From Mytilinidion resinicola (lineage: Eukaryota; Ascomycota; Dothideomycetes; Mytilinidiales; Mytilinidiaceae): a stretch of 64,000 nucleotides of DNA. The DNA lies in contig NW_022985437.1 of NCBI RefSeq assembly GCF_010093595.1, positions 707,380 to 771,379 of the forward strand. The letters run 5' to 3'. The translations under genes were made by a program, and so were the position numbers. The notes under the pieces were generated by a model. The model saw only the letters and a program-made list of their open reading frames with translations. It was not told the origin of the DNA and made no database searches. This document shows positions 7,075 to 59,388 of the stretch, in pieces. How positions within the stretch are numbered: position 1 is the first letter of the stretch; the number at the start of each line of letters is the position of its first letter.

Positions 7075-8889
7075 ACCTAATATTAGCGGCGATGAGGGAT
7101 GGGAGGGAGTAGACAACCGTGTCGTTAGGGCACGATTTGTCTTGTTCTGGTGGCATGATAGGAAAGGGTGGAAAGAGGGAGATGAGAGCGATGGATTTTG
7201 GATACCTTTGGCTATTGGTGTGCTTGCTTGGGTCGTTGGGCGTAATTGATATCCCGACGGTTTCGTGAGGTAGATTGCGTAAGCCGGAGAATTGTCGCCG
7301 TTCAGCGTCGTATCGCTATGAAATTGCATCACGGTCAGAGGCGATATGAATGAATTAGGGTACAGTGAAGCGGACCACAATCTTACCGAAGAGATCTCCT
7401 CCTGGTCAAGCATCGCGTGTGAGGTTTATGTGAGCTTCCCCTCTATCTATATATTTTTGTTATTTTTGTTAATCTTGTCTTCCTTTCAACTAACCCACAG
7501 CGCCGTCCCGATTGCGAAGTGCGGCCCGCGTCTGGTGACGTTACGAGGCATCTCATCCTCAGCGGCTTTGTCCTCGAATTGAGGACACTAAGGTTTGGGT
7601 TTGATTCCCGCAGCTCAGTTGACGACATATATTTGTCGAAGAGTGGTAGCGAACCCAAATCCCTTGCTGGGGTTCGTCAGAGTGCTCAGCAGGGGGGGTG
7701 CTCGGTAACGTAAGTTTTCTTTTCGGCGTTTTGCTCGTGAGGTCTTTTATCTGAGTCTTAAGACGGTTGGGATGGATAGGGGTGGTGATAAGCCTGTTTT
7801 GTGACTGTCATGTTCACGTTCACTCTGGTTAGCAAAGGACTCTCAAGGTCGTGTTCGATGCCGTTGTATCAGTGAGTACTAATCTGCACCCCCGTTGCTT
7901 GTTTGCGTATTGCTTAACGTGTGATGTGGGGGAAGCAATCCATCACCCTGGTTCAATGTCACAGCATATTAGTGAGTAGCATTGGATTTTGCGCTTTTTC
8001 GTAATCGGGAGGAGCGAGTACTAGTGGATACGGGATACTCAAATTGGATGAGAGCTATCCCTTAACCCGTCGTGGCGCAACGCTCGGACTTAGGATCAGG
8101 CTCCGTTGAACATAAAGTGACAGTCTGACACCATTTGAGGTCGCCCGCAAAGCTATCGGGCTTGTCAACATTGTCCTTTTCCGATTTTTCGTAACGTAAT
8201 AGAGGACCTCGAGCGGTACTAGGCAAGTGTACGAAAAGCCTAGAGGGAGTGTGTCTCAAGTATTTCGCTGCAGTTCTTATCACTCGAAGCTTTCTATATA
8301 CACTCATCTATATGCCGCTGTCCAAGATATAGGTCGAAGCACTACAAACTGTCTAGACAAGTCACTCATCTATGCCGAGTCATTTTAAGCCTTTTACACT
8401 ATCACTAGGAATGACCCCACCAAAGTCCATTTCCGCTTTTGAACCTGAGCACACAAGGTTTCAAACTGAGCTATGACTAAGCGAACCTGAGTTTATGGCT
8501 GTGCAATCCTGAGCATGCGTTAGCGGCTCTGAGCAAGCCTGAGCAAGCCAAGACTGGTCCTGATTCGGGCCAACACATGTCCTAGATTCAGGCGCAGAAG
8601 TTCAATGCAGCTTTGTCGACATATGAGGCATTGGATCATAACAATTCGCTAGGATTTATCTCCTGCATGCAAACAAGTTTCTATGTTGACTTGGGGTAGT
8701 GATATCGACCGGGTCGCTGTGCTTGGCGACCTGTCTCGGGATTATGTAATGAATTCTCAAGCGTCTAACTAACGTTAACTCAACTACCACCACCATCATT
8801 ATCATCATCACCCTTATCGTTCTTATCGCTTTCATCGACGAAACTACTATCAACGTCAATCTTAGTTGTCGGAACTCGTTGAAAGCACT
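7075..8889. other. 1.8-kb gene-poor region
   Basis: No gene I can support. A perfect 7-bp hairpin (TGTCCTC...GAGGACA) lies near 7569-7590, followed by a T-arm-like GGTTTGATTCCC, but no full tRNA fold can be drawn. Around 8440-8560 there are several loose copies of CCTGAGCAAGC. The segment 8780-8860 is rich in ACC and ATC trinucleotides. This looks like the start of an accessory block that runs to about 15 kb. Confidence 0.4.
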
Positions 8890-10308
8890 ATGGCACCGTC
8901 GGCCCTGTACCAACGTTCTTTCGCCGCGCTAGAAGCTCTCAAGCGCAGTAGCGATCTGGCCGATATCACACTACCCGAACGACCTCAAGACATCACAGCG
9001 GAACGAACGTACCTAGACGGCGCGATCACCACGTTAAGCACCTCAACCGGCCACCTTTACCACAACCACGCTATTTGGGCTAACGAGCTTTCTGGGATTA
9101 AGGATGGCGTGACAGAGGTCAGGCAAGATGTGGACATGGTCAGGCAGGATGTGGACAAGGTCAGGCAGGATGTGGACAAAAGATTCACGAGGTTGGATAC
9201 GGAGGTGGCATGGCTTAAGAAGGGGGTAATAGGGCTTGAAAAGGAGGTAGGAGGGCTCAAGCAGGAGGTGAACAAGGTCAGGCAGGATGTGGACAAGGTC
9301 AGGCAGGATGTGGACAAGGTCAGGCAGGATGTGGACAAACGATTCACGAGGTTGGATACGGAGATGTTAGAGGTCAGGCAGGATGTGGACGAGGTCAAGA
9401 AGGAGATCAAGAAGATCCAGGACGATGTGGCAGATTTCAAGCAGATATCACTAAACAGGCACGCGGAGAACGCATGGGATAACATTATGACGGTTGAACA
9501 CAACGGCGAAGTACCACCTAGATTTCCGCACAAGGTTATTATGCTGTGGAGACTTCAACGCCCGGAAAAACGTAAGCCACCTATATCGGTCCGCGTTTCT
9601 ATAGAGGCTAACACTTAGTTCTTTGCAGAACATGAATTAATCCGCTTACTCAAATTCTATCACATTGAGAAGACCTGGCTAGAGGATCACACTGATGACT
9701 TGGATACCTGGGAACACGGGGATCTGGAACATCCGGGCAGTGACTCAGATTCAGACGATATTGCGCAAAGCTATACGTCTTTGGAAGCTGCGGTAAAAGC
9801 GCATCCCGAAATAGCACTGCGAGCACTCACAGAAGCACTCGGGATGAACTATGACCGCATATCAAAAAGAATATTAAAATGGGAAGAGAATCAAGCGCGC
9901 ATGAGGGAAGAGAGAAGGATTGAAAAGCGCAAGCGTATTATCAGTGAAGGTATTGGGCGCAATACGGCTGACACAGCACCAAACAAGCATCGCAAAACAG
10001 ATGCTAAAACGGCCAGCCCTGAAGGGCTGTCAACTCGACTCCCACTTAAGGACCTAGTCGGCGGCCACGAGTCTATTGGACCCAAGTCAAGTCCTGAATC
10101 CGGCACTAAAATCGGATGGAAAGTCGAGTCCAGCGAAGGGTCTCAAAAGCGGGTCCGCGACACCGGGCGTTTCAAAGCCGCGTCGCCTTCCAAAGCCGCA
10201 TCGCCTTCCAAAGCCGCATCGCCTTCCAAAGCCGCGTCGTCTTCCAAAGCCGCGTCGCCTTCCAAAGCCGCATCATGGGATGCAACGGTGCCTTTTACCG
10301 ATAACTAG
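8890..10308 (+). CDS. Repeat-rich coiled-coil protein of unknown function
   Basis: Exons 8890-9571 and 9629-10308, intron 9572-9628 (GTAAGC, GGCTAAC, TTGCAG), 453 residues. ATG 8890 is the first ATG in frame. Residues about 75-190 form a long coiled coil built from a seven-residue unit (KVRQDVD-like, seven copies) in two blocks. Each block ends in KRFTRLDTE, so the region arose by internal duplication. Exon 2 begins with a globular part (ELIRLLKFYHIEKTWLEDH), then an acidic stretch, a basic RMREERRIEKRKR helix and a C-terminal tail of KAASPS repeats. No catalytic motif is visible. The exact heptads suggest a self-associating fibrous protein, and the SPSK tail resembles a phosphorylated or DNA-proximal linker. 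Both statements are inference. Confidence 0.65.
9114..9363 (+). repeat. Coding minisatellite, 21-bp unit in two blocks
   Basis: The unit AAGGTCAGGCAGGATGTGGAC occurs three times from about 9117 and three times from about 9273, with a further copy at about 9369. Both triple blocks are followed by the same GATTCACGAGGTTGGATACGG sequence (9182 and 9341), an offset of 159 bp or 53 codons. Units are nearly identical at DNA level, so the array is recent or kept uniform, and it stays in frame. Confidence 0.85.
10171..10275 (+). repeat. Coding 18-bp tandem repeat (KAASPS)
   Basis: About six tandem copies of TCCAAAGCCGCRTCGCCT encode the Ser/Pro/Lys-rich tail of the coiled-coil gene. Copies differ at one or two bases, mainly CGC/CAC choices at a CpG. 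Confidence 0.85.
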
Positions 10309-14670: not shown

Positions 14671-15638
14671 GGGGATGTCGACGATATTGTAATTTGCGAC
14701 GTGAATAAGTCGATGCTAGAGAGTGTAGAACCTGGCGTACAGTATATGAACAAGTCGGCTGCGCTCTAAAGCTCCACAGCACTCTCTGGTTAGAACAAGT
14801 GGCTGCGCTAGATACGCCCGAATGTCAATGGCCGAGACATGAAGAATCTGAAAAGTCGATCCTCGACTCCCGAGTACGAATTTGATGCTAGTTTATGCAT
14901 GGCTTCTACATTGAATTCGCTGCTAGCCAAAATGGACGGACGATATTTGCGAGGCGGAGTGGCTAGAGACGACAACTCGTGGGTTCGCGGGAGTTGGGGA
15001 GCTCTTGGACAGTGTACGGAGATCGGGTTAGAAAACATCCAAAGGTGCCAGGCTCGTAAGGGTCACTATTGGCACAAATATTAATTGAATCTTCTCTATT
15101 CTGTGCTGGAACTGCGCGAGAGTATCAACTAACATGATTTATACAATTTGATGGATTCCGCCAGAAAACATCAACTCCCCTCCCGAAAGAGGCAAAGGCA
15201 GCATGCTCCCGCCCAGCTGTCACAGTCCGACATCGCTTCTTGGCTGTCGCGGTGCGACTCAAGCCCGACTCCCGATGGTGCATCCCATCCCACATCATTA
15301 GCAGCCCTGCCGTCGCTCATTCGGCCCCTCCCGAAAATAGCCTTTCGTATGCATGTGCCCGGTCCCTCAAAGCGACTCATGGGTCAAACTCACTAACTCT
15401 GGGATATCTGGCCCAGCCTGAAACGCGTTAAAACCGCCGTTGCACTTTAATAACGTAGGCAGGTGCGGCAAAACAGATCCGGGAAAGTAGATAAGTGCTA
15501 GTATCTGGACCCCTAGTTGGTAGGGAAAAGCAAGAGTTCTATTCTACCCACAGCAACTGAATCGACATTCTCGTCTTCCAACTACAACACTCTCCACATT
15601 TGAAGATCCGGAACCAATCTACCACAATCAAAACGACC
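14671..15638. other. Divergent intergenic region
   Basis: Contains the promoters of the methyltransferase gene (minus) and the SDR gene (plus). Short ORFs at 14839-15084 and 15148-15396 show no family features and are not called. Confidence 0.45.
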
Positions 15639-16434
15639 ATGGGCAGGCTAGACGGAAAAGTAGCTATTGTCACCGGCGCCGGGCAAGGCATGGGCGCAGC
15701 ACACGCCCGCAGAATGGCCTCTGAAGGCGCAAAAGTCATCCTGACAGACATCGACGCCGTCGGCGCCTCTCAGATCGCCAAGGAAATCGGGCAGAACGCA
15801 CTTTTCATCCAGCACGACGTCGCGTCCATGAGCGACTGGACACGGGTGGTGGCCGAGGCTGAAAAGGCGTTTGGGCCGGTGACGGTACTCGTGAACAACG
15901 CGGGCATACTGGGCCCAATCAAGAACATTATCGATTTGTCTGTGGAGGAGTACATGAAGGTTGTGGCAGTGAACCAGCACTCGCAGTTCTATGGCATGAA
16001 AGCCGTGGTTCCTGGGATGAAGGCGGCAGGTGGGGGCAGTATTATCAATATCTCGTCAATTGCGGGACTAGTTGCTTCGGTTGGGGCCCCGAGTATTGCC
16101 TATGTTGGGAGCAAGTTTGCCAGTAGAGGTATGACGAAGCAGATTGCGGTGGAGTTTGGTCCCGACAAGATCAGGGTGAACTCAATACACCCTGGATATA
16201 TCAAAACGCCGATGATGGAGGCTGCAACGGATCAGGATGGTGGAGGCGTTGCGAGCGGGTTGGCCTTGAGAAGGATGGCGGAGCCAGATGAAGTGAGCAA
16301 GGTTAGGCTTCCAGAAACAAACTTGAGATTCCTCTTCTCATTTTCTACAGGTTGTGGTGTTCTTGGCTAGCGATGATGCCAGTTACGTGACAGGTGTTGA
16401 ACATCCTGTTGATGGAGGGTTTACTGCAGTTTGA
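15639..16434 (+). CDS. Short-chain dehydrogenase/reductase (classical SDR)
   Basis: Exons 15639-16292 and 16351-16434 (intron GTGAGC...CTACAG), 245 residues. The start at 15639 has an ACCATGG context and places the cofactor motif at the usual distance; an in-frame ATG at 15600 would add 13 atypical residues. Motifs: TGAGQGMG at residues 12-19 (dinucleotide binding), D at 37-39 after strand 2 (favouring NAD(H)), NNAG 86-89, Ser 139/140, Tyr 155 and Lys 159 (YVGSK), and a C-terminal 'ASYVTGVEHPVDGGFT'. It resembles bacterial-type 3-alpha/20-beta-hydroxysteroid dehydrogenase-like SDRs. Substrate unknown. It stands next to the methyltransferase in divergent orientation, so a shared promoter region is possible. 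Confidence 0.9.
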
Positions 16435-27653: not shown

Positions 27654-28598
27654 TTATAGCTTCGCATTGATCACGGTACCTCCGTCAAGAGTGATAGTCG
27701 CTCCATTCACAAACCCACCAGCCTTGCTTCCCAAGAACAAACATGCGCCTGCAACGTCTGTGGGTGACCCAATCCTACCTAGAGGGGATTCGCTCTTGAT
27801 TTTATCTCCGAACTTCTTCAGTGTTGCCGCCATCATTTTGCTCTCAAATGGACCGCATGCCAGCACGTTGGATGTTATATTTCGCGGGCCGAGGTGAACA
27901 GCGAGCACGCGGCTCAGGTGGTGTAGGCCAGCCTTGCTCGCAGAGTATGCGAAAGTAGAGAGAGCTGGCACCCGTAGGCCGTCAATGCTGCCGATGTTTA
28001 TGATACGCGCGGGATCTTCAGGTGTGGCAGCGGCTTCGAGGAGAGGTGTTACTTGTTGAGTGATGGTGAAGACGCGCTTGAGATTTAGTGTAATTACGCG
28101 GTCCCAGGCGCTGTCGGGGTAGGTATCGTAGGGCTCGCCCCAGTTGCTGCCGCTGTTGTTGACGAGGATGTGGAGTTCTGTCCAAAGTATAAGTTAAGCA
28201 ATGGCCTTTCAAGATCCAACTTTCCCCAGGCGGAAGGATATATGTATGGGGGGAAAGGGAACATACTCTTCTCTTTCTTTTTGAGCTCTTCAGCTAGGTT
28301 CTTGACGTCCCCCTCTTTGTAGAAGTCCGCGGTAATGTAATGAGCGCTTCCCTTGCCCAGAGCATTGAGTTCTTTGCATGCCTGTTCGCATGACTTCGCG
28401 TCTCGAGACGCTATGTACACCTTTGCGCCATTTTGAACGAAGCCTTCCGAAATCATGCGTCCAATGCCTTTGGCGCCTCCAGTGACCAGCACTACTTTGT
28501 CCTAGCTGACGTCAGTGCTTGTTCCTGATTCTCGAAAGGGTGGGCTTTTCGCGTAGAGAATTGGCTACCTTGACGTTGAACAGATTCTGAATATCCAT
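27654..28598 (-). CDS. Short-chain dehydrogenase/reductase
   Basis: ATG 28598. A 30-nt first exon (MDIQNLFNVK, 28569-28598), then 28267-28501 and 27654-28177, give 262 residues; introns 28502-28568 and 28178-28266. Motifs: TGGAKGIG at residues 17-24, NNSG after strand 4, and 'YSASK' active site in 'STFAYSASKAGLHHLSR'; the C terminus has 'GGFVNGATITLDGG'. The Ser-Arg-Asp stretch after strand 2 (YIASRDAKSC) favours NADPH. Overall it resembles the RhlG/3-oxoacyl-ACP reductase-like fungal SDRs. The gene runs divergently from the F-box pseudogene. Confidence 0.9.
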
Positions 28599-35439: not shown

Positions 35440-36526
35440 ATGGTGGCCTTCCAAGATCCCCCTGCCAAATTTCCATCCACCAACCCCTCCAACCCCAACC
35501 CCCTCCACATCGGCGTCCTCATCCTCCCTCCCGTCCAACTCCGTACGTAAGCCCCCGACAGAGATAAAAAGTTTCCCAGCAATCTGTCTGTTGGAAAGAC
35601 TACTCAGGAAGTGTTTCGAGACAAGCACAGTGGTGTCCTGGAATCCCCATGAAGAAGTGTCTCACGCAAACAGTGCCTGTTACAAGAAATCAAGAGCGGC
35701 TTCCTCACTCTGGTTCTGCATGATTTGCTAACCTTATTCCCACCTTTAGTCGACATCTCCCCCATCGATCTCTTCGGCATGCTCACGCCCGAGTACCTGA
35801 CCGCGTGCGGCCTCCCCGCGCCCCTCCTCGCCCTCGGCATCCCCATCACTATCACCTACATCTCGCCCACCGGCGACTCGCCTGCCCCCTGCACCGCTAG
35901 CGCTGGTATCCGCATCGACGCCTCGATCGCGTCCCCCGGAGTGCAGCCGGGGAAGCTGGATATTCTGTTCATCCCCGGTCCAGACCCGAGCGCGGTGCCG
36001 CAGGAGCCGGAGCTGGAGTTTGTGAGAGGGCATGTGGCGAAGGGCGTGGATTTGCTGATCGTATGCACGGGGCAGTTTGTAGCGGGGTATGCGGGGGTGC
36101 TGGATGGGAGGGTAGCAACGGGGCCGAGGGGCTTATTAGGGAGGTTGAAGGGGGAGTTTGAGGAAGTGAGGTGGGTGGAGAGGCGGTGGGTGAGGGATAG
36201 GGGGGTTTGGACGAGTGGTGGGTGAACCTTTCTTATTCTTCTTGCTTCTCTTCTTTTCCTTCCTCGCATGAGGGAGGGGCAGTGTGGAATCAGTGAAGGT
36301 TGCTAATGGTGGGGACCTAGGTGGGATTACGAATGGGCTGGATATGGTAGCGGCGTATATCCGGCAGCGGTGGCCGGGGCCGCTGGCGGAGGTTGTGTGT
36401 AAGATGGCGGATGTGGGGGAGAGAGGGGTGGAGTATGAGATCGGGACGGTGAGGGAGAATGGGTTTTGGGTCTGGCAGATTTTGAGGGCTTGGACGGCGG
36501 GGTTTTGGAAGGGGAAGCAGGCTTGA
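35440..36526 (+). CDS. DJ-1/PfpI-family protein (class I glutamine-amidotransferase fold)
   Basis: Exons 35440-35542, 35750-36217 and 36321-36526, 258 residues. The first intron is long (207 nt, GTACGT, GCTAAC branch, CTTTAG); the second uses a GTGGGT donor. Family landmarks: 'HIGVLILPPVQLLDISPIDLFG' at the N terminus, 'LDILFIPGPDPSAVP', the nucleophile-elbow segment 'DLLIVCTGQFVAGYAGVLDG' with the expected Cys, and 'WTSGGITNGLDMVAAYI'. Fungal members of this size have unclear roles; some relatives act as glyoxalase III or isonitrile hydratase. No His partner can be assigned with certainty. Coding strand G-rich, typical codon use. Confidence 0.85.
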
Positions 36527-44136: not shown

Positions 44137-45263
44137 TTAGTCCTTATAGATTGGAATGAACCAGTACATTATTCCGTTCAAAATGGCCGCAGTTATGTCT
44201 CCGAGCCAATGCACGTAATGGTAGTCAAAACGCTCTTTTGAGATGTCAGATCATTGAATTAGAGACTCGGAAGCATTCTCACATACCTGCTGCGGCCATG
44301 AGACCAAGACACCGGGCTGGATTCAGCGAAGCACCTGAGTAGCCTGATGTGACAAACCCAGTAGAAAAGGTGAAAAGCCCTAGAGCGATTCCAACCAGAA
44401 TTGGCGATAGAGCAGGACCAAAGACTACACGTTGCCGCGGATCGAGGCCGACCCCAAAGGCTACAAATATCAAAGCGAAAGCAGTCATGAACTCGAACGT
44501 GTATGCTTGCCCCGCGTTGACCAGCGAAGTGTCAACGTAACATCCTGGTATCTTTTCGAGAGCGGCTGCTGGCAGACCGAGAGCCGCGCGCATCAGGAAA
44601 CCCCCGATAACAGCTCCGGTACATTGAAAACCAACGTACAAGATTGTACGTGGTAGGGTTGCTAGCCTCCCAAAGAACGTTGATATAGTGATGAAAGGGT
44701 TGAAATGCCCACCTGAGAAGTAGTTAGGTTATGACAGAGCAATTTGGTAATGTCCCTTACCAGAAACAGGCCCTCCGGCAAAAATGAAAAGCGATATGAG
44801 GACTGTGTTTGCAATGGCTCCGAGAACTGCAGGCACCAAAGGGCCTAGAGACGTTTCTGTAATAGCGGAGGACAGCCCCAGAGAGTAAAGACCAGAAACG
44901 AAAATCTGAAGACCAGTCCCAACGCCTTCAATGGTTGCTTCTTTCCATAATTCCGGGTCAGAGAAACCCTGTGGATCGATACTTGCGTGCCACGAGAAAT
45001 GTGCAGTCGCATCGGGTGCCTTTCTGGTTATGGATTCGAATTGAGCCTGCAGTGGCCGGCTAGTGGTTAGCTGTGCTCGTGTGGTTTTTAGGGTCAGTTG
45101 CTCCTACATCGTCACGAGAGACAGTGAACTGTTGGTTACCACCAATACGTCCTGCAAAGGGACGTGACACCGCTCCATGCAAGCGCTGTAGCTCGACATC
45201 GCTAGTAGCTTCAAGGGCTCCTGTGGGCTCGAGGGAGTGGACGCGTTTCCGTGAGGTTGACAT
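44137..45263 (-). CDS. MIP-family channel (aquaporin/aquaglyceroporin type)
   Basis: Four exons from ATG 45263: 45108-45263, 44761-45046, 44287-44712 and 44137-44234; introns of 61, 48 and 52 nt; 321 residues. The N-terminal ~80 residues are cytosolic. Six hydrophobic helices follow, with the two half-helix motifs: 'GGHFNPFIT' (first, NPF instead of NPA) and 'GASLNPARCLG' (second, NPA conserved with Arg). The last exon gives 'YHYVHWLGDITAAILNGIMYWFI'. MIP proteins pass water, glycerol or small solutes through the pore lined by the two motifs. The altered first motif and a Cys two residues after NPA (NPARC) mark a fungal subgroup whose selectivity is uncertain. Located in plasma or internal membrane. 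Confidence 0.88.
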
Positions 45264-50523: not shown

Positions 50524-53500
50524 TTACGACCCCATCCCACCCCCCTCATCCAAAACATCTCCCGTCCCGATCTGCGGCCCACCGAACCCCCACCCATCGC
50601 CCACAAAAACGCCGTCGTCGCCCAGTGTTGGCGGCTCCATGTTGAATGGCATGAACCACGCCATGCTCTGGTCGGGGAAGAAGCCACTGCCCATGCCGCC
50701 GGTATTCGGCATACCCCCGAGATCTAGATTCCAGAGATCGGGGGCAGAGGACCCAGCGAAGGTTGAGAGGTCGAGGGGGAGGAGCGGGTTCGCGGTCGCG
50801 GCATGGCTCATGAGGCCGATATTTTCGGCATGAGACTGGGGTTGCGGCTGGCCCGGGATTTGAGAGAACGGCGCCGGGAAGGAGGCGTTGGCGGGGTTGG
50901 ACGCGTAGTACGCCGGGTCGAAATTCTCGACGACGTCTGGCTGGAGGTGCATTTGGTGGAGGTCTTGCGGTGGGTGTTGAAGGGCCGTTTGCTGTGATGG
51001 TGATGGTTGGGGTTGGAGCCGAGCAGTTGCGTCGATAGAGGGAGGTGCGTCGTCCTTTGTGGATATATTTTGTTTCTTCTTTTTCGCCATTTTGCGCTGA
51101 TGTTCTGCTCGAGATGGTGGCGAAAGGCTTGCGAAGAACTCTTCGACGCTTTGGAGGTCGGATTTTTGGCCGAGGACTGCGTCGGTGCCCGGTTCTCTCT
51201 TGGCCTTGGTAGCTGGGTCTTCGTAATCGGTGTTGGAGACGCCATGAGGATATCGATCAAACCAGTCGCCGTATTGAAAGATTTGTTCCTGGGGTACTTT
51301 GCCGTTGCCCGCGGAAGATCCACGCAAGACTGCATCAGCGTGTTGCCGGTATAAGTCTTTCAAGTTCTCCGCAATGTAATGAAACATGCCCCAATACTTC
51401 TTCATTTTGGTCAGATACTTGACGTTGCAAGCCAAGTATTTCTTCGATTGCGCTTCCAGTTGTGGGTTTTTGCTGAACACCCCTCGAATGTGAATAGTGC
51501 TTGAGAAGAAGGCAGAATAACCAACAAACGGAGCGACGACGTTGTAGTCCTCAGACGCGCTGATCACAATAGACATTTGCTCCGCGGCTTCTAGGGCATT
51601 ACGTGCGGCCTTGGCGAGGAATTCCTGCGGAATATCATTCGGAGTATGAGCTCCCGATTCCGTCAAATGAGAGGTTCTACCCAGTTTGCGGATGTTGTCC
51701 CCATTCGCAGACGAAGACGGCCGAGCGAACCGATTCAGGAAAAGAACGCTCTGGTAGTAGAGGATATGCATGTATAGGAGCTGGTTTGCAGACCCCTCAA
51801 TGGCGTGGCTCTTCAGATTCTCTTCGTTATGAACTAGGGACTCCGGTAACGTTTCCTTGAATTTCCGAAGTCGGTCCTTGATGCAATTGAAAGTGGACTT
51901 GGGATCCCACGTAGGTATCGTCTCCCTTTCTATCCCGCCAAGGTTCAGGTATTTGATTAGCTCGCCCCATATGGCGACCAAGCGAATCAAGTATGCCATT
52001 ACTCCCATATTTGCCTTCGCGTCCAACAGCTGTTCCGAATTTGACGTAGAAACCCCGCCATCTAGAGCTTCAGTAGATGCTGGGATTTCGTCAATGTACA
52101 ATTGCTCTCTAACGGGCAACTGAACTTGAATGAACTGTTCATTGACGAACAGTGGGCGCTCTGTGCCAGATGAGTTGAATCGATCCATGAGGAAGCACGC
52201 CCACATTGTTCTTCTTCGTATTTCTCGATCAATGAAGCTGAGCTTTTTGCGTTCTCCGTTCTCGCCACCCAGTGGGTCGTAATCGAGGTCCCTATGAAGT
52301 TGCAAGGCATAGGCCATTCTTTGCGCCATCCCCCCAAACATCCAACTTCGGCCTCCTTGGCACGTTCCAAACTCATGTAGCCCAAGTAAGAGATACACTA
52401 TCAGGATGGTAATATTCGGGGCGTCATATCGTTTGAGGGCTATTTCGCGGGCCTTCTTGGCCCACTCTTCGCCTCGAAGAAATGCAGGCTCCGTTCGAAG
52501 CTGTGGATGGGTCGAGAATCTCGCGGAAATAGCACATATTGCTAATATTAAAACTGGAGGGACGTTCCCAGAAGCTAACCTGCGCATAAAGCTGGGTTTG
52601 TGAAGAAGAGGGTAGCTCTGGCCGTATACAAAGTCAAAATAGACTTCTGCGAGATGTTCTTGCATCTCTTTTGATGGTAGGCTTTCTACTCCTTCGGTAA
52701 GGAGCTTACTTTCCTCCGTAGTCCGTGCTCTTGATGTTGCCGTCGCATTCTCTTCGACTTGCTTTGAGGCACCCGATTTTGACCAGTCATCCAGGTCATT
52801 ACCAAATGCTTCGTCCGCCGCCCGTTTCTTAGCAACTGAAGGCTTTGGAACGATGCCGGGGAGAGGTGGTTTGACGACTGACCTGCCCATTACTGGGACA
52901 GATCCAGCGTTTTCCTTTGGGATCAGCTTTATCACCCGATCTTCCATTCTCTTAAGTCGTTTGTCCAGCATGGCCATATAGTCGGTCCTCGGCGCAGCTT
53001 TGCGAGTGGTAACTTTGTAGACGCAAGGTATGCGTGATCGCAAACAGTGTCTGCAAGCAGGTTTCTCACCAGAGCATCGAATCTTCTTCCTTCGACAAGC
53101 AATGCAAGCCAATGGAAGCCGTTTCCGCTCCTTGCCCGCTTTGGTCTTCATTTCGCTCCACGGAGGTGGCCCCAGATTGCCGTCCTTATCCTTTACTGAG
53201 CCTTCGCCTCCGTCTCCGCTGACACTCCCATCAGCTTTGGTCCCCATCGTATCGTTCATTGTGTCCCCAACTCCCATCACGCCTAGCCCAACGCCACTCT
53301 CTGGACTTGTATTTGGGTCCAAACCATCTCTTTGCTGACTGAAGTCTCCGATGGTGCTAGTGCTCAGTCGGTGCTGTAGGCCAGATGCAACAGAGCCTGG
53401 GCCTTCGCCGAAATTCGAGACAGGTGTGCGGTGTTGGGTGAAAGAGTGGCTCTTCGTCGCCGGGGACGGTATTTGGGCCCGGTCATATGAAGCACCGAAT

Positions 53501-53748
53501 GGCTGATAGTCGCGCGATCCGTTTGCGAAAGCCATGGGAACATCGGAATACGTTGGCACGAGAGTAGGGTTGGGAGGCATAGAGGGCGACTGTGAAGCCG
53601 AGAGCGCACTCTCCATGTGCTGAAGCCGCGTATTAGACGCGACGTAACTGTTCAGACCAAGGGGATCTTCAGGCGATTGATCTGTGAGGTTGTTGTCCGG
53701 CAACGGATGTGGATAGTTCGCCATCGACGCCGTTGAGGCAGGCCTCAC
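50524..53748 (-). CDS. Zn2Cys6 fungal transcription factor
   Basis: One uninterrupted 1074-codon frame; ATG 53748, or the in-frame ATG at 53724 (MANYPHPLPD). The binuclear zinc cluster has Cys at residues 215, 218, 225, 232, 235 and 242 (C-x2-C-x6-C-x6-C-x2-C-x6-C) within 'RLPLACIACRRKKIRC'. A linker and short dimerising coiled coil follow (MLDKRLKRMEDRVIK). The middle carries the fungal-specific transcription factor domain (PLLHKPSFMRRL, 'GRSWMFGGMAQRMAYALQLHRDLD'). The C terminus is rich in Gln, Pro and Ala (PQPSPSQQTALQHPP), a likely activation region. The zinc cluster lies unusually far from the N terminus. Target genes unknown. It ends about 5 kb from the RiPP-like locus but reads toward the CCCH gene, so a regulatory link is only a possibility. 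Confidence 0.92.
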   Translation of the reverse strand: MRPASTASMANYPHPLPDNNLTDQSPEDPLGLNSYVASNTRLQHMESALSASQSPSMPPNPTLVPTYSDVPMAFANGSRDYQPFGASYDRAQIPSPATKSHSFTQHRTPVSNFGEGPGSVASGLQHRLSTSTIGDFSQQRDGLDPNTSPESGVGLGVMGVGDTMNDTMGTKADGSVSGDGGEGSVKDKDGNLGPPPWSEMKTKAGKERKRLPLACIACRRKKIRCSGEKPACRHCLRSRIPCVYKVTTRKAAPRTDYMAMLDKRLKRMEDRVIKLIPKENAGSVPVMGRSVVKPPLPGIVPKPSVAKKRAADEAFGNDLDDWSKSGASKQVEENATATSRARTTEESKLLTEGVESLPSKEMQEHLAEVYFDFVYGQSYPLLHKPSFMRRLASGNVPPVLILAICAISARFSTHPQLRTEPAFLRGEEWAKKAREIALKRYDAPNITILIVYLLLGLHEFGTCQGGRSWMFGGMAQRMAYALQLHRDLDYDPLGGENGERKKLSFIDREIRRRTMWACFLMDRFNSSGTERPLFVNEQFIQVQLPVREQLYIDEIPASTEALDGGVSTSNSEQLLDAKANMGVMAYLIRLVAIWGELIKYLNLGGIERETIPTWDPKSTFNCIKDRLRKFKETLPESLVHNEENLKSHAIEGSANQLLYMHILYYQSVLFLNRFARPSSSANGDNIRKLGRTSHLTESGAHTPNDIPQEFLAKAARNALEAAEQMSIVISASEDYNVVAPFVGYSAFFSSTIHIRGVFSKNPQLEAQSKKYLACNVKYLTKMKKYWGMFHYIAENLKDLYRQHADAVLRGSSAGNGKVPQEQIFQYGDWFDRYPHGVSNTDYEDPATKAKREPGTDAVLGQKSDLQSVEEFFASLSPPSRAEHQRKMAKKKKQNISTKDDAPPSIDATARLQPQPSPSQQTALQHPPQDLHQMHLQPDVVENFDPAYYASNPANASFPAPFSQIPGQPQPQSHAENIGLMSHAATANPLLPLDLSTFAGSSAPDLWNLDLGGMPNTGGMGSGFFPDQSMAWFMPFNMEPPTLGDDGVFVGDGWGFGGPQIGTGDVLDEGGGMGS

Positions 53749-55576
53749 ATCCCCACCAACGCTCAGGACAATTGCTAGCTAACACAAGGGTATAGATAAA
53801 CGGGTGTTTGATTGGAATAGTAGCGTCGCGGAGCAGCGTATATCATGTCGGGTGCTGCTCAGTTGCCAGCATCGCCGTAGATCCGAGCGAAGGGTTTTCC
53901 TCGCGCAGTGGCGATGCGCGCGAGCTATACAGCCAGCCCAGCAACGAGGCGTGAAAGCAAGGTTGGCGCAATCGGGGGTCCGGAGCAGCCAGTTATTGTC
54001 CTGTTATTCGTGTGCAAGGGGAAGAGGCTGAAAAGCGGTCAAGGCGGCGTTCGGACGAGAGGTCTTTTCGGTGAATGGCGAGGAGGGGCAAAGGCAGAGC
54101 TTCGAGGCCGGAAGCTGACGCAATAGGCGCGGTATGGGCATAGACGAGCGCGCAGGTAGAAATTCGAGTGAATGGAAGGAGGGTGACGTTGTGTCTGGCG
54201 GGAGTGCTGGTCGCAATAGCAGCATTCGATGCGCGCAGTGATCTGAAGCACACAAAGCCGCCGAGGTTCTCCATTCTTGGGCCAAAGTAGTGCTGTTCGC
54301 AGGCCACGATGCGCCCACTGCAAAGGCCAGAACTTGCACCACAGGCGCCGAATTAGTCAGGGCTCCCCCCGCATGTTCTGCACCTCGTTTCTACCCGCAA
54401 CACCCATCGCGACGCCCAAGGCCCTGCACGCCCGTGACGCCCTGGCCGCGGCTTCCAGGCAGGGAGTCACTGCGTCAATGGCATGCACCTGAGGGCATGA
54501 TAGCACAGTCGCACCATCCACGTTCACCTCACTGCCTCCAAGCGCCTCGCACCGCTTGGAGCGTGCACATCAGCCACCAGGGGACAACTCCTCACAGATG
54601 CAGTCATTGTACGAAATCGCCGTGCGAACTCGGACATCCTTCGGGCGTCCAATCTGCGGAACAAATGACAGCGAAGATCGTGTAATTTGCTCGCCTGGGA
54701 GGCCATCCATCCCGCGTCGGCGACCATGGACGATGCGCCTTCAGCCATTTCCCATGTGCCCATCCAGCTTGAAGTCCGAGACGGCCTTTTAACTCTGCAT
54801 TGACGGGTGTTCCATGCTGTGTACCAGGGCCCTGGTCGCCCAGTGCCAACCCTATTCGCCTGCGGCACGGCGATGACTGCCTCCACTGCGGCAGACCGTT
54901 CGCGATCGTCACAATTCATGGACAAGAGCTTAGAGTTTCGTGATACGCCCGGCGTGGGGGCCGGAGCACGATTAGGTTATTAGGCTGGCAATGGGATTGG
55001 AGATAAGTACCACAGGTACGTGTTGTTCCTGGGCATGACCCTGTTTGGGGCTGGACAGACTACGTACACACTTCACCGTTGCGCCGTTGGCTCGTCCATG
55101 TACCATGCGTGCAAGACAGCCAAGGCATGTTTGACCTTTTTGTATAGGGTTACGTAGTGTTCATGCATACTTGATGGCTAGATCACTAATACTTTTGCAC
55201 TGTCAGGCGTCATAATATAATTGCCCTGCAGAGGAAGTCACTGTGAGATAGCAGGTGAACACTGATGAGTAGCTTCTTAGACACATCGAACATTCCACGA
55301 CAATAGAATGGAACCATTTCGTCGTTGATCCAGATAAAACAGCCTCTTGCAACTACATACTCATAATATAAAGAATGACTAGGAGGACACTCCAGCTCAT
55401 CTCAGCGTCCTACAACTGCACATCTCCAACTAGCTCTCTGCTTCAGTCTTTTGTCCAATCCACCCACCGTTCGCAAGCTTGACCTGGTGGCAACATGTCA
55501 GCAGTGGTACCCATCTTCGCTGGTAGCTATGCAAACAAGCCTACCGCGCCTGTATTACTCACGACGTCAACGCGTC
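53749..55576. other. 1.8-kb upstream region of the Zn2Cys6 gene
   Basis: G+C-rich part (53800-54920) with overlapping ORFs in all frames, none coherent; then an A/T-richer part with no ORF. It probably holds the regulator's long promoter and the 3' flank of the precursor gene. Confidence 0.45.
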
Positions 55577-56527
55577 TCAAGAGGCATTATGCTCTGCATT
55601 GGTAGTGGCAGCCTCTTCGGCTTTCTTGTATTTCGCGTAGCTCGAGTAAATTCCATAAGGCCCGTAGGTGCCGTAGCCATCCTGAATATGAGGCTTGCCG
55701 GCTTCATCCCGCTTCTGGTTCTGCACTGTGCCATCTATAGCTTTCGAGTAGCTCCCATACGATTGATATGGACGATAGGAACCGTAGTAGCTAAATGTAG
55801 TTTCGGTCTTAGGAGTGGCGCTATCGTCGCGCTTCTTGTTTTGTGCAGCTTCTTCCGCTGCAGATCGATACGATCCGTATGAGGTATACGGCCTGTAACT
55901 GCCGTAGTAGCCGAATGTTGTTTCAGTCTTGGCGTTGTCGGCATCGTTGCGCTTCTGATTTTGGACGCCCTCTTCCGCTTCTGACATTCCAGTTTCGGGA
56001 GTGGCTATGTTACCGCGCTTTTCATTCTGCGCTGCACCCTCCGTAGCCTTCGAGTAGCTTCCATACCATGTGTATGGGCGATAAGACCCGTAGACGCCAA
56101 ATGTCGCTTCTGTTTTGGCAGTAGCCATATCATCGCGCTTCTTGCTCTGAGCAGCTTCTTCCGCTGCATCTCGATACGATCCGTATGAGGCGTACGGCCT
56201 GTAGCTACCGTAGTAGCCGAACGTTGCTTCAGTCTCGGGATTGTCCGCATTGCTGCGCTTTTGGGACTGCTGCGTGGTGGCAGTATTTTCCGCGGATGAG
56301 CTGTAATGATCATAAGACTTGTATATTTGATATGGTCGGTAGCCGGTGTAAGTGCCATACTCAGTGAAGGTGGCTGCCTCTTCTGGAGTAGGGATAATTC
56401 TCCATGCTCGCGGATCAGCTTCTCTTTTCAATGGATTGATGAGGCGCCCGTTAGCAATTGGAGCAGCGATGACGGCCGTCGAGGCACCAATCACCAAGGC
56501 GGCGAGGAGGTCTCGGGTGAGATGCAT
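55577..56527 (-). CDS. Secreted Kex2-processed repeat precursor, dikaritin/UstA-like RiPP candidate
   Basis: ATG 56527 (preferred over the upstream in-frame 56629, since it starts directly with a signal peptide), 316 residues. Residues 1-22 form a signal peptide ending near AVIAA. Lys-Arg pairs at 34-35, 90-91, 130-131, 170-171, 192-193, 232-233 and 272-273 divide the rest into seven segments. Four segments are 40 residues long. The core is Tyr-rich: YGSYRPY, two variable residues, then YGSY. Segments 92-131 and 194-233 are most alike, as are 132-171 and 234-273, so a two-unit block was duplicated. Segment 172-193 has lost 18 residues including the whole core. The first (36-91) and last (274-316) segments are divergent. 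Signal peptide, tandem repeats, KR sites and a Tyr-rich core are the layout of UstA-type precursors. A UstYa-like gene lies divergently at 58307. The product is unknown. Confidence 0.85.
   Translation of the reverse strand: MHLTRDLLAALVIGASTAVIAAPIANGRLINPLKREADPRAWRIIPTPEEAATFTEYGTYTGYRPYQIYKSYDHYSSSAENTATTQQSQKRSNADNPETEATFGYYGSYRPYASYGSYRDAAEEAAQSKKRDDMATAKTEATFGVYGSYRPYTWYGSYSKATEGAAQNEKRGNIATPETGMSEAEEGVQNQKRNDADNAKTETTFGYYGSYRPYTSYGSYRSAAEEAAQNKKRDDSATPKTETTFSYYGSYRPYQSYGSYSKAIDGTVQNQKRDEAGKPHIQDGYGTYGPYGIYSSYAKYKKAEEAATTNAEHNAS
55709..56254 (-). repeat. 120-bp coding repeat array of the precursor gene
   Basis: Encodes residues 92-273. Four full 120-bp units and one 66-bp deleted unit, each ending in an AAGCG-type Lys-Arg codon pair. 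The recurrent plus-strand signature is CGATAC...TCGTATG or CTTCGAGTAGCTYCCATA. Units are diverged enough that the array is not brand-new. Confidence 0.85.
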
Positions 56528-58306
56528 GACAAGACTTGAGGAAATTGCGTTCTCTGAAACGATTGAAGAAATGAAGTGAGCGAAAGGCCACAGGCTCTGA
56601 GGAAGAAATTCGGGCTGGGAGAGCCACATTTAAATGGAATATACATCTTCTAGAGACAGAGTTCGATGAGACAATCGGCGATACGAATACCGACATGACA
56701 CAGGCATAGACTTTGGAACTCCATGAGCCCAGTGTGTCGTATGGTGCTAGTCGAGTAGATGTCGAATTACAGCTCGCCGAATGCTTTTCGAGCTTCGCGT
56801 GATTCCAGTGTTGTTCCACCATTGGGCCACGCTAGGAGGCACCTTTTAGCAATCAAAAGAGGCAAAGTAATACCTCATAATAGACCTAGGATTATCAAGG
56901 ACGTCGGGAAGTCGGTATAACTTATTGGACGAATGATTGTGAAACTGTAAATGAAGACTTGGCATACGCGGGTAGGGTCCGTGGCTATCCTAAGAAACCT
57001 TTTCCCATTGGCGAAATACGATATAGACGTCTGACTTCACGCCACGATACTCAACATATCGGCGACAAGACGTTCCACGGCGCAATTGGAGAGATGCGGT
57101 GAGGATGCTGTGCTGCGAAGGATGGCCATGTGTTGAGCCTACGAGCAACGACAGGCGGATCTGGAATAGTGGCTGTCAAGCTGTGGTCTAGAATCAAGTT
57201 GCTGCGAGAACCCGAGTTATCCGTGACGACTTGCCCTACAAGGATGGAGGCGTAGCGCTTTCCTTTCGAGGAAGCGTCAAAGAAATCGATGAAGAAACAA
57301 AGGGGAAGGGTTGATGAGAAGTTCGGCATAGGATAGTCAGCCGCACCAATCGGACTCCAGATTTTCCGGTCCGATGGTATCTTTGGTACCTCTTCGTTTG
57401 CGCCAGCAACGCATCTGTTGGAACTACATAGCACTGTGATTCCGGTAGTGGACTCCTGACATCGGGATCCCGCAGCCATGTACCTGTCAACCCACAAAAT
57501 CCCAGGGGGCCACGCAGGGCCCGGGAGAGCCGCGTGATGTTGTCTGCCTTCACTGCTCAGCCTGGACGGGGAACCATGTTGTCCATGTACTACTGCCGTT
57601 TGCAGACGGCCGAATGTTCTCCCCGGCTTCTGCGGCATCGAAGGTATATCGTAGGTATATCAGAGGGCTGTTATTAATCAAGAAGTCAGACGTTTCGCAC
57701 AGCCTACGGTATGGTGAAGGAGGTACGGTCCTTAGTCTGTACATACAAACCCCCACTATTCTACCCGCTCCTAATTGCTAGGTACCATCTCCTAGAGTCA
57801 CTGAGTCAGGTAACGAGTCATTTAAGAGCTTCAAACTTCTATGTAAGATTCTGCTGCGACGGAACTGACATGCCGGCTACTGTTTGGGACAGTTCATCAA
57901 TACGCCACAAGCAATCCTGAAGAAACACAGGGTTCAGTATGAGGCACAGCAGCTGGCAAGTGATTTTGAATCTAGATGATGATAATCTGGGAATTTAACT
58001 GCTTCGAAGCTGTGTACTATTGCACTCTTCACTGAGTCTAGCAAACCTCAAAGGTCAGCCTACAGAAATGGCGTGCTACACGGATGGTTGCAGGAGCCGA
58101 GAGAATGTCATCCATTTGATGATCTACTGAACGACATTTGCGCTAATCTGTGTAATCGAACTAACAATTACCTAATTTTGCTTCGACTTATGTTCAAAAA
58201 TTCTCAGTAAAGCTCAACAGGTGCCTTCCTCCCTTCAATTTATCTAACACAGCGTCACCCTTCACTCTCTACTTCATTCTTGATATCCATGCGAGCTTTG
58301 ATGTAA
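56528..58306. other. Divergent intergenic region of the RiPP-like pair
   Basis: 1.8 kb between precursor and UstYa-like starts. On the minus strand, an A/T-rich ATTTAAATGGAATATAC segment at 56627-56643, about 100 bp before the precursor ATG, may hold its core promoter. A 195-codon minus-strand ORF (57051-57638) and overlapping frames show no family feature. I cannot exclude a diverged small tailoring gene here. Confidence 0.4.
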
Positions 58307-59388
58307 ATGCTCACTATGTTTGGCCAACTCGTGAGAAGTTCTATCAGGTTCACACCAGTCTCTCAGAAAGAAGACAACGAGGCCCTGCTTCCGTGTCCTT
58401 CTTGTAGCGCCTCCTCTGAAATCAAACGATCACCACATCAACCTTCTGCAACTTGGTACTTCTTGAAGACGTATGCCCCTCTGGTCCTCCTAACGACTGC
58501 GTCGGGTCTCTTAGGGATATGGTTGGGCAATAATTGGGTTTTGAACCCCGACAAATTTTGCATTTGGCACACTTCCCAGTATTGTACGTCTTGTTGCCTT
58601 TGATCTGGACCAAGAGCTGATACCTTGCGTATAGCTCCTATAGTTGAAGACGTGGACCTTCATTATGAAACGATTCGCTTCAACGGTTCTTTGCTCAAAG
58701 CAAACATTTTCAGGGGCGCCGCGAGCCCCGAGGTCGATGCAGCATGGGAGTCACTGGGGGTCAACTGTAGGTACCAAGCAGAGATCCCCAACAGTCAAAA
58801 ATACTGAAACTTATCCTCAGACCGTGCCATGGTGGTTCCAGCAGATCAAGCAACTCAATCCGGCATCCTTCCGGATCAAGTGAAAGTCAGCCAACGATAC
58901 GGGGGCGGGTTTCCTGCCAATGTAGAAGGTTTGCATCACTTGCACTGCTTGGTAAGTCATTACTCACGCAACATAACCAATACTTGTGCTCAAGGCGTTG
59001 CTGGTCATGGTTTCTAATCATTCTGCTGTAGAACCTGCTCCGTAAAGCGCTGACATGGAACTACGACTACTACCATGAACAAGGCGAGGGGCCATTCACG
59101 AATTCAGACTACGTGATCCGTTATCATACCACACACTGCCTAGACATCCTCCGCCAACAGCTCATGTGTACCGTTGATGTTGGTGTCCTGGGACAGATCT
59201 GGTATCATCCCGAAGGCAATCCCATAGAGCCGTTTGTCGACTTCCATACGAAACACAAATGCCGGAACTTCGAGGCGGTAAGGGCATGGGCGGAGAAGCA
59301 TCAGTTGCCTCCTGAAGAGAAAGTCGATATGCAGCATTTCTATGAATTGCCGAAAGAGGGAGACAGGATTGTTTCTGAGATTCCATGA
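58307..59388 (+). CDS. DUF3328 / UstYa-like protein, probable RiPP-modifying oxidase
   Basis: Exons 58307-58583, 58635-58766, 58821-58951 and 59032-59388 (introns 51, 54 and 80 nt), 298 residues. Residues 1-55 are cytosolic; one transmembrane helix lies at about 56-75 (APLVLLTTASGLLGIWLG), making it a type II membrane protein with a lumenal domain. The domain shows the family order: 'IVEDVDLHYETIRFNGSLL', 'AAWESLGVNYRAM', 'QRYGGGFPANVEGLHHLHCL', then 'RYHTTHCLDILRQ' and 'CTVDVGVLGQIW'. The two HxxHC motifs (HHLHC 175-179, HTTHC 212-216) are the hallmark of UstYa/UstYb. These are needed for oxidative macrocyclisation of dikaritin peptides such as ustiloxin, phomopsin and asperipin. DUF3328 proteins also occur in other pathways, but the neighbouring precursor supports a RiPP role. 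Confidence 0.9.

Follow-up and report, generated by a model that had tools for sequence, protein, structure and literature searches.

Whether a fungal pathway for a ribosomally synthesized and post-translationally modified peptide (RiPP) may consist of as few as two genes is the question raised by a locus of the ascomycete Mytilinidion resinicola, located within a stretch of 64,000 nucleotides of contig NW_022985437.1 (hereafter, the window). In this locus, a gene for a tyrosine-rich precursor, putatively secreted and carrying Kex2-type Lys-Arg (KR) sites, lies divergently from a gene of the UstYa/DUF3328 family. The first-pass annotation of the window had read the two genes as a minimal dikaritin-type RiPP locus; its coordinates, the secreted-looking KR precursor, the divergent UstYa/DUF3328 gene and the two HxxHC motifs of the latter were all confirmed by the open reading frames (ORFs), the exon model and Pfam. 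The anatomy of the pair, the selection acting on the core and the occurrence of precursor/UstYa neighbours in six other regions of this genome support the dikaritin-type reading, and it appears probable that this is a two-gene locus of that type, in which UstYa would cross-link a ladder of regularly spaced tyrosines.

The precursor gene and its tyrosine ladder

The precursor ORF spans positions 55577..56629 of the reverse strand, the start Met of the putative signal peptide being located at 56527 (Table 1). The N-terminus, judged by hydropathy alone, is hydrophobic and ends in AAP. The protein contains seven KR sites, and every cassette except the last has a KR end. When KR-separated similar segments were searched for, each of the seven cassettes was found to be similar to at least one other. 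The cassettes, 22-56 amino acids long and including four full repeats of 40 amino acids, agree, as judged by our own segment scan, with the repeats that PMC7329392 requires of Kex2-processed repeat proteins (KEPs), i.e., at least three of 8-100 amino acids between dibasic sites; the signal peptide also required there is putative in this precursor. Tandem Repeats Finder disclosed no array between positions 54000 and 60000 because the repeats are too diverged at the DNA level, in agreement with the codon analysis reported below. The precursor gene is present in single copy, being its own sole match in the genome at E<=0.1.

The analysis of the cassettes revealed a very regular arrangement of tyrosines. 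The pattern YGSYRPYxxYGSY, reported in the first-pass annotation, is indeed present, but it is an incomplete description of a more general rule, that is, Tyr recurs in steps of exactly three residues, in runs of five to seven, in all the six core-bearing cassettes out of seven. Thirty-three of the 36 tyrosines are in phase, and 27 of the 30 successive spacings equal three, the remaining three being doubled YY. Cassettes 2, 3, 5 and 6 harbor five ladder tyrosines each, with an extra Tyr immediately before the ladder in three of them. The cassette flanks are acidic and Ala/Glu-rich. When shuffling was confined to the core regions, the observed number of i,i+3 Tyr pairs was matched by 1, 791, 56, 795, 807 and 7 shuffles per 100000 for cassettes 1, 2, 3, 5, 6 and 7, respectively (cassettes 2, 3, 5 and 6 are related repeats and their tests are not independent). 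Cassette 4 represents a natural coreless unit.

In order to assess the selection acting on the core, the four full repeats were compared codon by codon. In the correct frame, the proportion of synonymous differences (pS) in the core is 0.83 and that of nonsynonymous differences (pN) is 0.19, with a ratio of 0.23; the corresponding values for the flanks are 0.72 and 0.28. The same core read in the two wrong frames, used as a control, gave pN/pS values of 1.2 and 2.0. The conserved Ser of the core spans different codon families (AGC/TCT/AGT/TCC), and so does the conserved Arg (AGG/CGC/CGT). The four repeats are old, with synonymous sites near saturation and core residues conserved. The low in-frame ratio, in comparison with the wrong frames, argues strongly that the encoded core is genuine and maintained by selection, even though repeats within the same gene can also exchange sequence.

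The core had been described as unfamiliar, and a search of literature text (as opposed to sequences embedded in figures or supplements) for YGSYRPY, YGSYRP and GSYRPY agrees with this, since only GSYRPY was retrieved, from an unrelated antibody paper; no literature on Tyr-rich Kex2 repeats was found.

Table 1. Features of the precursor/UstYa locus, of its surroundings and of other regions of the same genome (coordinates of the window, unless preceded by the name of another region)
Feature	Coordinates	Strand	Description
Kex2-repeat precursor coding sequence	55577..56527	-	316 amino acids; no intron required; signal-like N-terminus and seven cassettes
Signal-peptide-like N-terminus, MHLTRDLLAALVIGASTAVIAA	56462..56527	-	Hydropathy maximum 2.25, residues 10-20
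Cassette 1	56255..56422	-	56 amino acids; seven Tyr, spacing 3,3,3,3,3,3
Cassette 2, core FGYYGSYRPYASYGSY	56135..56254	-	40 amino acids
Cassette 3, core FGVYGSYRPYTWYGSY	56015..56134	-	40 amino acids
Cassette 4	55949..56014	-	22 amino acids; no Tyr, core absent; flanks and KR retained
Cassette 5, core FGYYGSYRPYTSYGSY	55829..55948	-	40 amino acids
Cassette 6, core FSYYGSYRPYQSYGSY	55709..55828	-	40 amino acids
Cassette 7	55580..55708	-	43 amino acids; C-terminal; no terminal KR; six Tyr, spacing 3
Intergenic region, presumed shared divergent promoter	56528..58306	.	1.8 kb; presumed from position
UstYa/DUF3328 gene	58307..59388	+	Four exons; 298 amino acids, or 295 from Met 58316
First HxxHC motif, HHLHC	58934-58948	+	Position invariant among aligned relatives
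Second HxxHC motif, HTTHC	59125-59139	+	Position invariant among aligned relatives
Zn2Cys6 transcription-factor ORF	50527-53778	-	1084 amino acids; next Pfam-matched ORF past the precursor
Short-chain dehydrogenase stretches	15561-16367 and 27657-28193		Left side
DJ-1/PfpI-family ORF	35653-36222		Left side
MIP channel	44282-44728		Left side
Signal-peptidase (S26) ORF	L031:2594-3376		About 7 kb past the UstYa gene, beyond the window
Other precursor beside UstYa	L011:3228-3653
Other precursor beside UstYa	L012:6516-7106
Other precursor beside UstYa	L014:3505-3825
Other precursor beside UstYa	L016:6386-6592
Other precursor beside UstYa	L021:6411-6860
Other precursor beside UstYa	L022:6359-6640

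The UstYa gene and the recurrence of the pairing

The exons of the UstYa gene (58307-58583, 58635-58766, 58821-58951 and 59032-59388) are separated by GT-AG introns of 51, 54 and 80 bases, and the encoded protein matches the Pfam UstYa family with 187 bits (E 5.7e-55, residues 49-270). The exon model is backed by the closest UstYa among the matches listed, that of Lophium mytilinum (Mytilinidiales, Dothideomycetes), since 261 of 295 columns are identical (88%), with one gap; the start of the Lophium protein suggests Met 58316, rather than 58307, as the probable start. Forty relatives, picked for spread from the 120 matches listed, were aligned, and the His and Cys residues of both HxxHC motifs proved to be invariant among them, together with Cys 222 and 253.

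The AlphaFold model of the Lophium protein as a monomer (mean predicted local distance difference test, pLDDT, 80.4; predicted template modelling score, pTM, 0.70) exhibits a disordered N-terminus, a helix at residues 46-74 and two helices (170-193 and 202-221), each bearing one HxxHC. This predicted layout is shared with CctR, i.e., an anchor helix and an HxxHC(x)nHxxHC arrangement on paired helices. In CctR, as described in PMC12435403, a pair of copper ions is held by HxxHC(x)nHxxHC, and a lumenal orientation has been proposed for the C-terminal part; a dicopper site is attributed to the UstY family in PMC12186524, where the example given is the ether between a Tyr oxygen and a Phe beta-carbon in asperipin-2a. 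When the PDB was searched by structure with the UstYa model, none of the 198 matches found at E<=10 reached E<=0.001 (the best had 0.55), and a sequence search of the same database gave weak matches alone (E 1.4 and 1.6).

The genome (47.1 Mb, 44 contigs) contains 24 gene-like places matching UstYa, distributed in 20 regions, including the window. The scan for KR-separated similar segments, which an interrupted precursor would escape, was extended to the other 19 regions, all of 10 kb except one of 8.4 kb, and disclosed Kex2-repeat precursors in six of them (L011, L012, L014, L016, L021 and L022). Counting the window, a Kex2-repeat ORF is present in 7 of the 20 UstYa regions, and in six of these seven UstYa is divergent from the precursor. 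A signal-like stretch is located upstream of each of the six other precursors, and an AAP[VIL] end is common to the N-terminus of the window precursor and to this stretch in five of the six. Their cores, such as SSYAEK, GAQYSHLYKEA, RIGYKDKR, GSGLWWKR, FWQSGDWKR and GGGDWKR, are unrelated to the Tyr ladder. Since the pairing recurs in six further regions of the genome, a single coincidence hardly explains it. The chance that a random gene lies within 2 kb of a UstYa place is about 0.25% (24 places in 47.1 Mb).

The only control for the segment scan, i.e., the other 60 kb of the window, yielded one match, a coiled-coil-like ORF (8866-9615) containing tandem VRQDVDK repeats and probably forming a coiled coil. 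This ORF was discarded because it is without the layout of a Kex2-repeat precursor, and the same applies to the ORF at 5967-7610 of L011 (presumably WD40-like), to two matches in L020 (one of them partly N) and to one in L028; true repeats read out of frame or in antisense were also left out, as were the L011 rows duplicated in L002. A cluster larger than that of the window can be observed in L014 (C20:694600-704500), where a single repeat precursor is accompanied by three UstYa places within about 6 kb.

Proposed pathway and relation to known systems

The window locus is of the same general type as the pairs of precursor and DUF3328 genes surveyed by Umemura in 2020. According to the survey data in PMC7329392, a DUF3328 gene is found near 1758 of the 7878 Kex2-repeat precursors, most commonly as the next gene, and Tyr is enriched in the repeats of DUF3328-neighboured precursors (65.6% vs 38.2%); nine such clusters are described for Venturia inaequalis (PMC9632046). 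The DUF3328/UstYa enzyme that defines the dikaritin class, its two HxxHC motifs and a divergent precursor gene 1.8 kb away are all present in the window. The locus type is already known; the core is unusual, and repeat cores are diverse throughout such precursors.

The asperipin-2a cluster of Aspergillus flavus (AprA/AprY/AprT/AprR), as presented in PMC6514808, resembles the window in having a Tyr-rich Kex2-repeat precursor, one UstYa and no tyrosinase, and its core FYYTGY contains two Tyr three residues apart, as in the ladder; the window UstYa is likened to AprY on the basis of published descriptions. Asperipin-2a is bicyclic, with ethers between Tyr side chains and beta-carbons, and AprY has been proposed to form these ethers in sequence (PMC6514808, PMC12186524). 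The asperipin repeats are reported to be of 8 amino acids with a hexapeptide core (PMC7329392), whereas the cassettes of the window are of 40 amino acids with five to seven Tyr at a spacing of three. Moreover, isoflavone-reductase-like or multidrug-transporter ORFs of the asperipin type were not found among the ORFs scanned with Pfam, i.e., 30 of the window and ten of the 9.8 kb on its right, larger ORFs only.

The initial claim that exactly this pair of genes defines the ustiloxin, phomopsin and asperipin pathways is too strong, since ustiloxin and phomopsin also depend on a tyrosinase, and four genes make up the putative cluster of asperipin-2a, as stated in PMC7329392 and PMC6514808. The ustiloxin and phomopsin systems share with the window the signal peptide (putative in the window), the KR-separated repeats and UstYa-type enzymes with two HxxHC motifs, but they differ in possessing a tyrosinase, a methyltransferase, a peptidase and other genes, and in their cores (YAIG/YVIG and YVIP). 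The victorin core comprises about six residues. Epichloecyclins (GigA) and victorin also derive from a repeat precursor likely cut by Kex2 and contain a ring involving an aromatic side chain, as proposed for the window; they differ in that a single aromatic-to-aliphatic link is described per core (Tyr to Ile, Phe to Leu), the epichloecyclin cores being short, with nine residues (PMC9233826).

On this basis, it can be inferred that the precursor might enter the secretory pathway via its putative signal peptide and that the Golgi protease Kex2, for whose P-domain one match is listed in this genome, would cut after KR, releasing cassettes of about 40 residues with a (Tyr-x-x)n core. By analogy with CctR and AprY, UstYa might be a membrane-anchored, lumen-facing binuclear copper enzyme that oxidatively cross-links the core tyrosines; the link would most likely join the Tyr phenol oxygen to a beta-carbon located two or three residues along the chain, and would be formed repeatedly within each core. 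General proteases would then trim the flanks, and the peptide would be secreted. Since the ladder has a spacing of three, an AprY-like reaction could be repeated along the peptide. The idea that a single UstYa works along the core and forms four to six consecutive i to i+3 links in each peptide, giving a rigid polycyclic ladder, is tentative and looks doubtful; if true, one enzyme would form more rings than in asperipin-2a.

The dikaritins reported by 2022 are only five, according to PMC10512285, to be compared with the 1758 DUF3328-neighboured precursors. One enzyme and one periodic substrate would offer a clean test both of whether a single DUF3328 copper enzyme can act iteratively and of how such an enzyme recognises the spacing.

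Distribution of the two genes, alternative readings and gene neighbourhood

The UstYa protein has 585 homologues at E<=0.001, 120 of which are listed. After that of Lophium, the next relatives among the matches listed are one record with 65% identity and the protein of Glonium stellatum, whose 69% identity extends over 77% of the length; the identity of all the listed matches other than Lophium ranges from 49 to 69%. Judged from this single gene, the DNA most likely comes from a Mytilinidiales-like fungus. The listed hosts include many Dothideomycetes, Aspergillus and Penicillium (which are presumably Eurotiomycetes), Sclerotinia (Leotiomycetes), Xylographa (Lecanoromycetes) and Geoglossum (Geoglossomycetes); no relatives were found in viral contigs or in bacterial and archaeal genomes. 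A profile built on the 120 matches and the window UstYa gives at least 371 bits on all its 121 members. In the 19 other UstYa regions, where the exons were scored one at a time and the values are therefore lower, no single stretch exceeds 85 bits. In a phylogenetic tree including also six paralogues of the same genome, represented by partial sequences, the paralogues branch off with a support of 0.80; their distances from the window UstYa are 3.1-5.6, compared with 1.6 or less for the matches. Since the matches were chosen by similarity, the tree shows that the predicted enzyme belongs to one distinct and widespread Pezizomycotina clade and does not imply strict orthology. The spread of the clade over several classes is surprising for an enzyme of specialised metabolism. 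No substrate of this clade was found in the literature consulted; as the clade extends to Aspergillus, Penicillium and Sclerotinia, its substrate may give a clue to peptides occurring in a wide range of common fungi.

Some of the data argue against the two genes forming a dikaritin-type locus. The main weakness is that the Lophium UstYa is 88% identical, yet 5.8 billion proteins yielded no homologue of the predicted precursor, either in the first search (none of 3843 candidates at E<=1) or in the search of the same proteins with the other length range (none of 169 candidates at E<=10). With many UstYa relatives and no precursor relatives, the homologue searches did not show the co-conservation that the first-pass annotation had looked to, and the substrate of the UstYa clade may be older than, and different from, this precursor. 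Precursor homologues may be unannotated in the relatives; precursors of this kind are described as highly variable in PMC12048977. Furthermore, the segment scan found no Kex2-repeat ORF in 13 of the 20 UstYa regions, so that a UstYa gene does not by itself imply a precursor, and UstYa proteins are also active in non-RiPP pathways, as discussed in PMC12048977. The same source reports the five-gene definition of dikaritins by Ding et al. (tyrosinase, methyltransferase, several DUF3328, and transporter or peptidase), from which the window seems to depart, with one UstYa and neither tyrosinase nor methyltransferase detected in the 40 ORFs scanned; later definitions, as reported there, do not demand those extra genes.

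These data leave room for an alternative that is judged unlikely, namely that the Tyr-rich peptides released from the precursor are secreted in linear, unmodified form, with a surface-active, antimicrobial or signalling function, and that UstYa acts on another substrate. The presence of the UstYa clade in several fungal classes, together with a precursor without known relatives, would fit this scenario, as would the 6120 of 7878 Kex2-repeat precursors without a DUF3328 neighbour (PMC7329392); however, an adjacency within 1.8 kb would rarely arise by chance, the pairing is repeated in six other regions with unrelated precursors, and the strict Tyr spacing suits a substrate of cross-linking. As for the reaction catalysed, DUF3328 enzymes are known to hydroxylate (CctR) and halogenate (PMC12435403), and to desaturate phomopsin residues (PMC10512285), but Tyr-rich repeats accompany DUF3328 neighbours and the known members close rings at Tyr, according to PMC7329392. 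A UstYa that hydroxylates or dehydrogenates core residues, without any macrocycle being formed, is regarded as improbable. Finally, it is very improbable that Tyr ladders of different molecules are cross-linked into a dityrosine-like polymer of cell wall or spore coat instead of forming small rings, even though each peptide carries many phenols and long YGSY-type repeats are reminiscent of Tyr-rich structural proteins, as the KR sites would let Kex2 fragment a structural protein and the published UstYa cyclisations consulted act within one peptide.

Returning to the dikaritin-type reading, the idea of a very short, two-gene pathway is supported for the ORFs scanned, 17 of which (out of 40) have a Pfam match at E<=0.01. 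The first-pass annotation had seen no tyrosinase, methyltransferase, flavin-dependent monooxygenase or peptidase nearby. The first three were not detected in the 40 ORFs, where genes of many small exons could escape, and none of the 16 tyrosinase matches listed for the genome falls on this contig; as for peptidases, the DJ-1/PfpI ORF and, beyond the window, the S26 ORF are present, neither of which is of the S41 type named for known clusters. No evident tailoring enzyme of known dikaritins appears to be encoded by the matched neighbours. The Zn2Cys6 ORF might be a regulator or a bystander. A promoter scan of the intergenic region, designed for bacterial-type sites and applied here to a fungus, gave no sites, and the ORF located between the two genes (57054-57659, reverse strand), without a Pfam match at E<=0.01, was put down to chance.

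In addition to the genes reported in Table 1, a CCCH zinc-finger protein and a glutathione S-transferase are encoded on the left of the pair, with helicase and kinase stretches further out. The right side harbors Sen15, a glycolipid transfer protein, a GH76 glycosidase, two isocitrate/isopropylmalate dehydrogenase stretches and the exocyst subunit Sec5.

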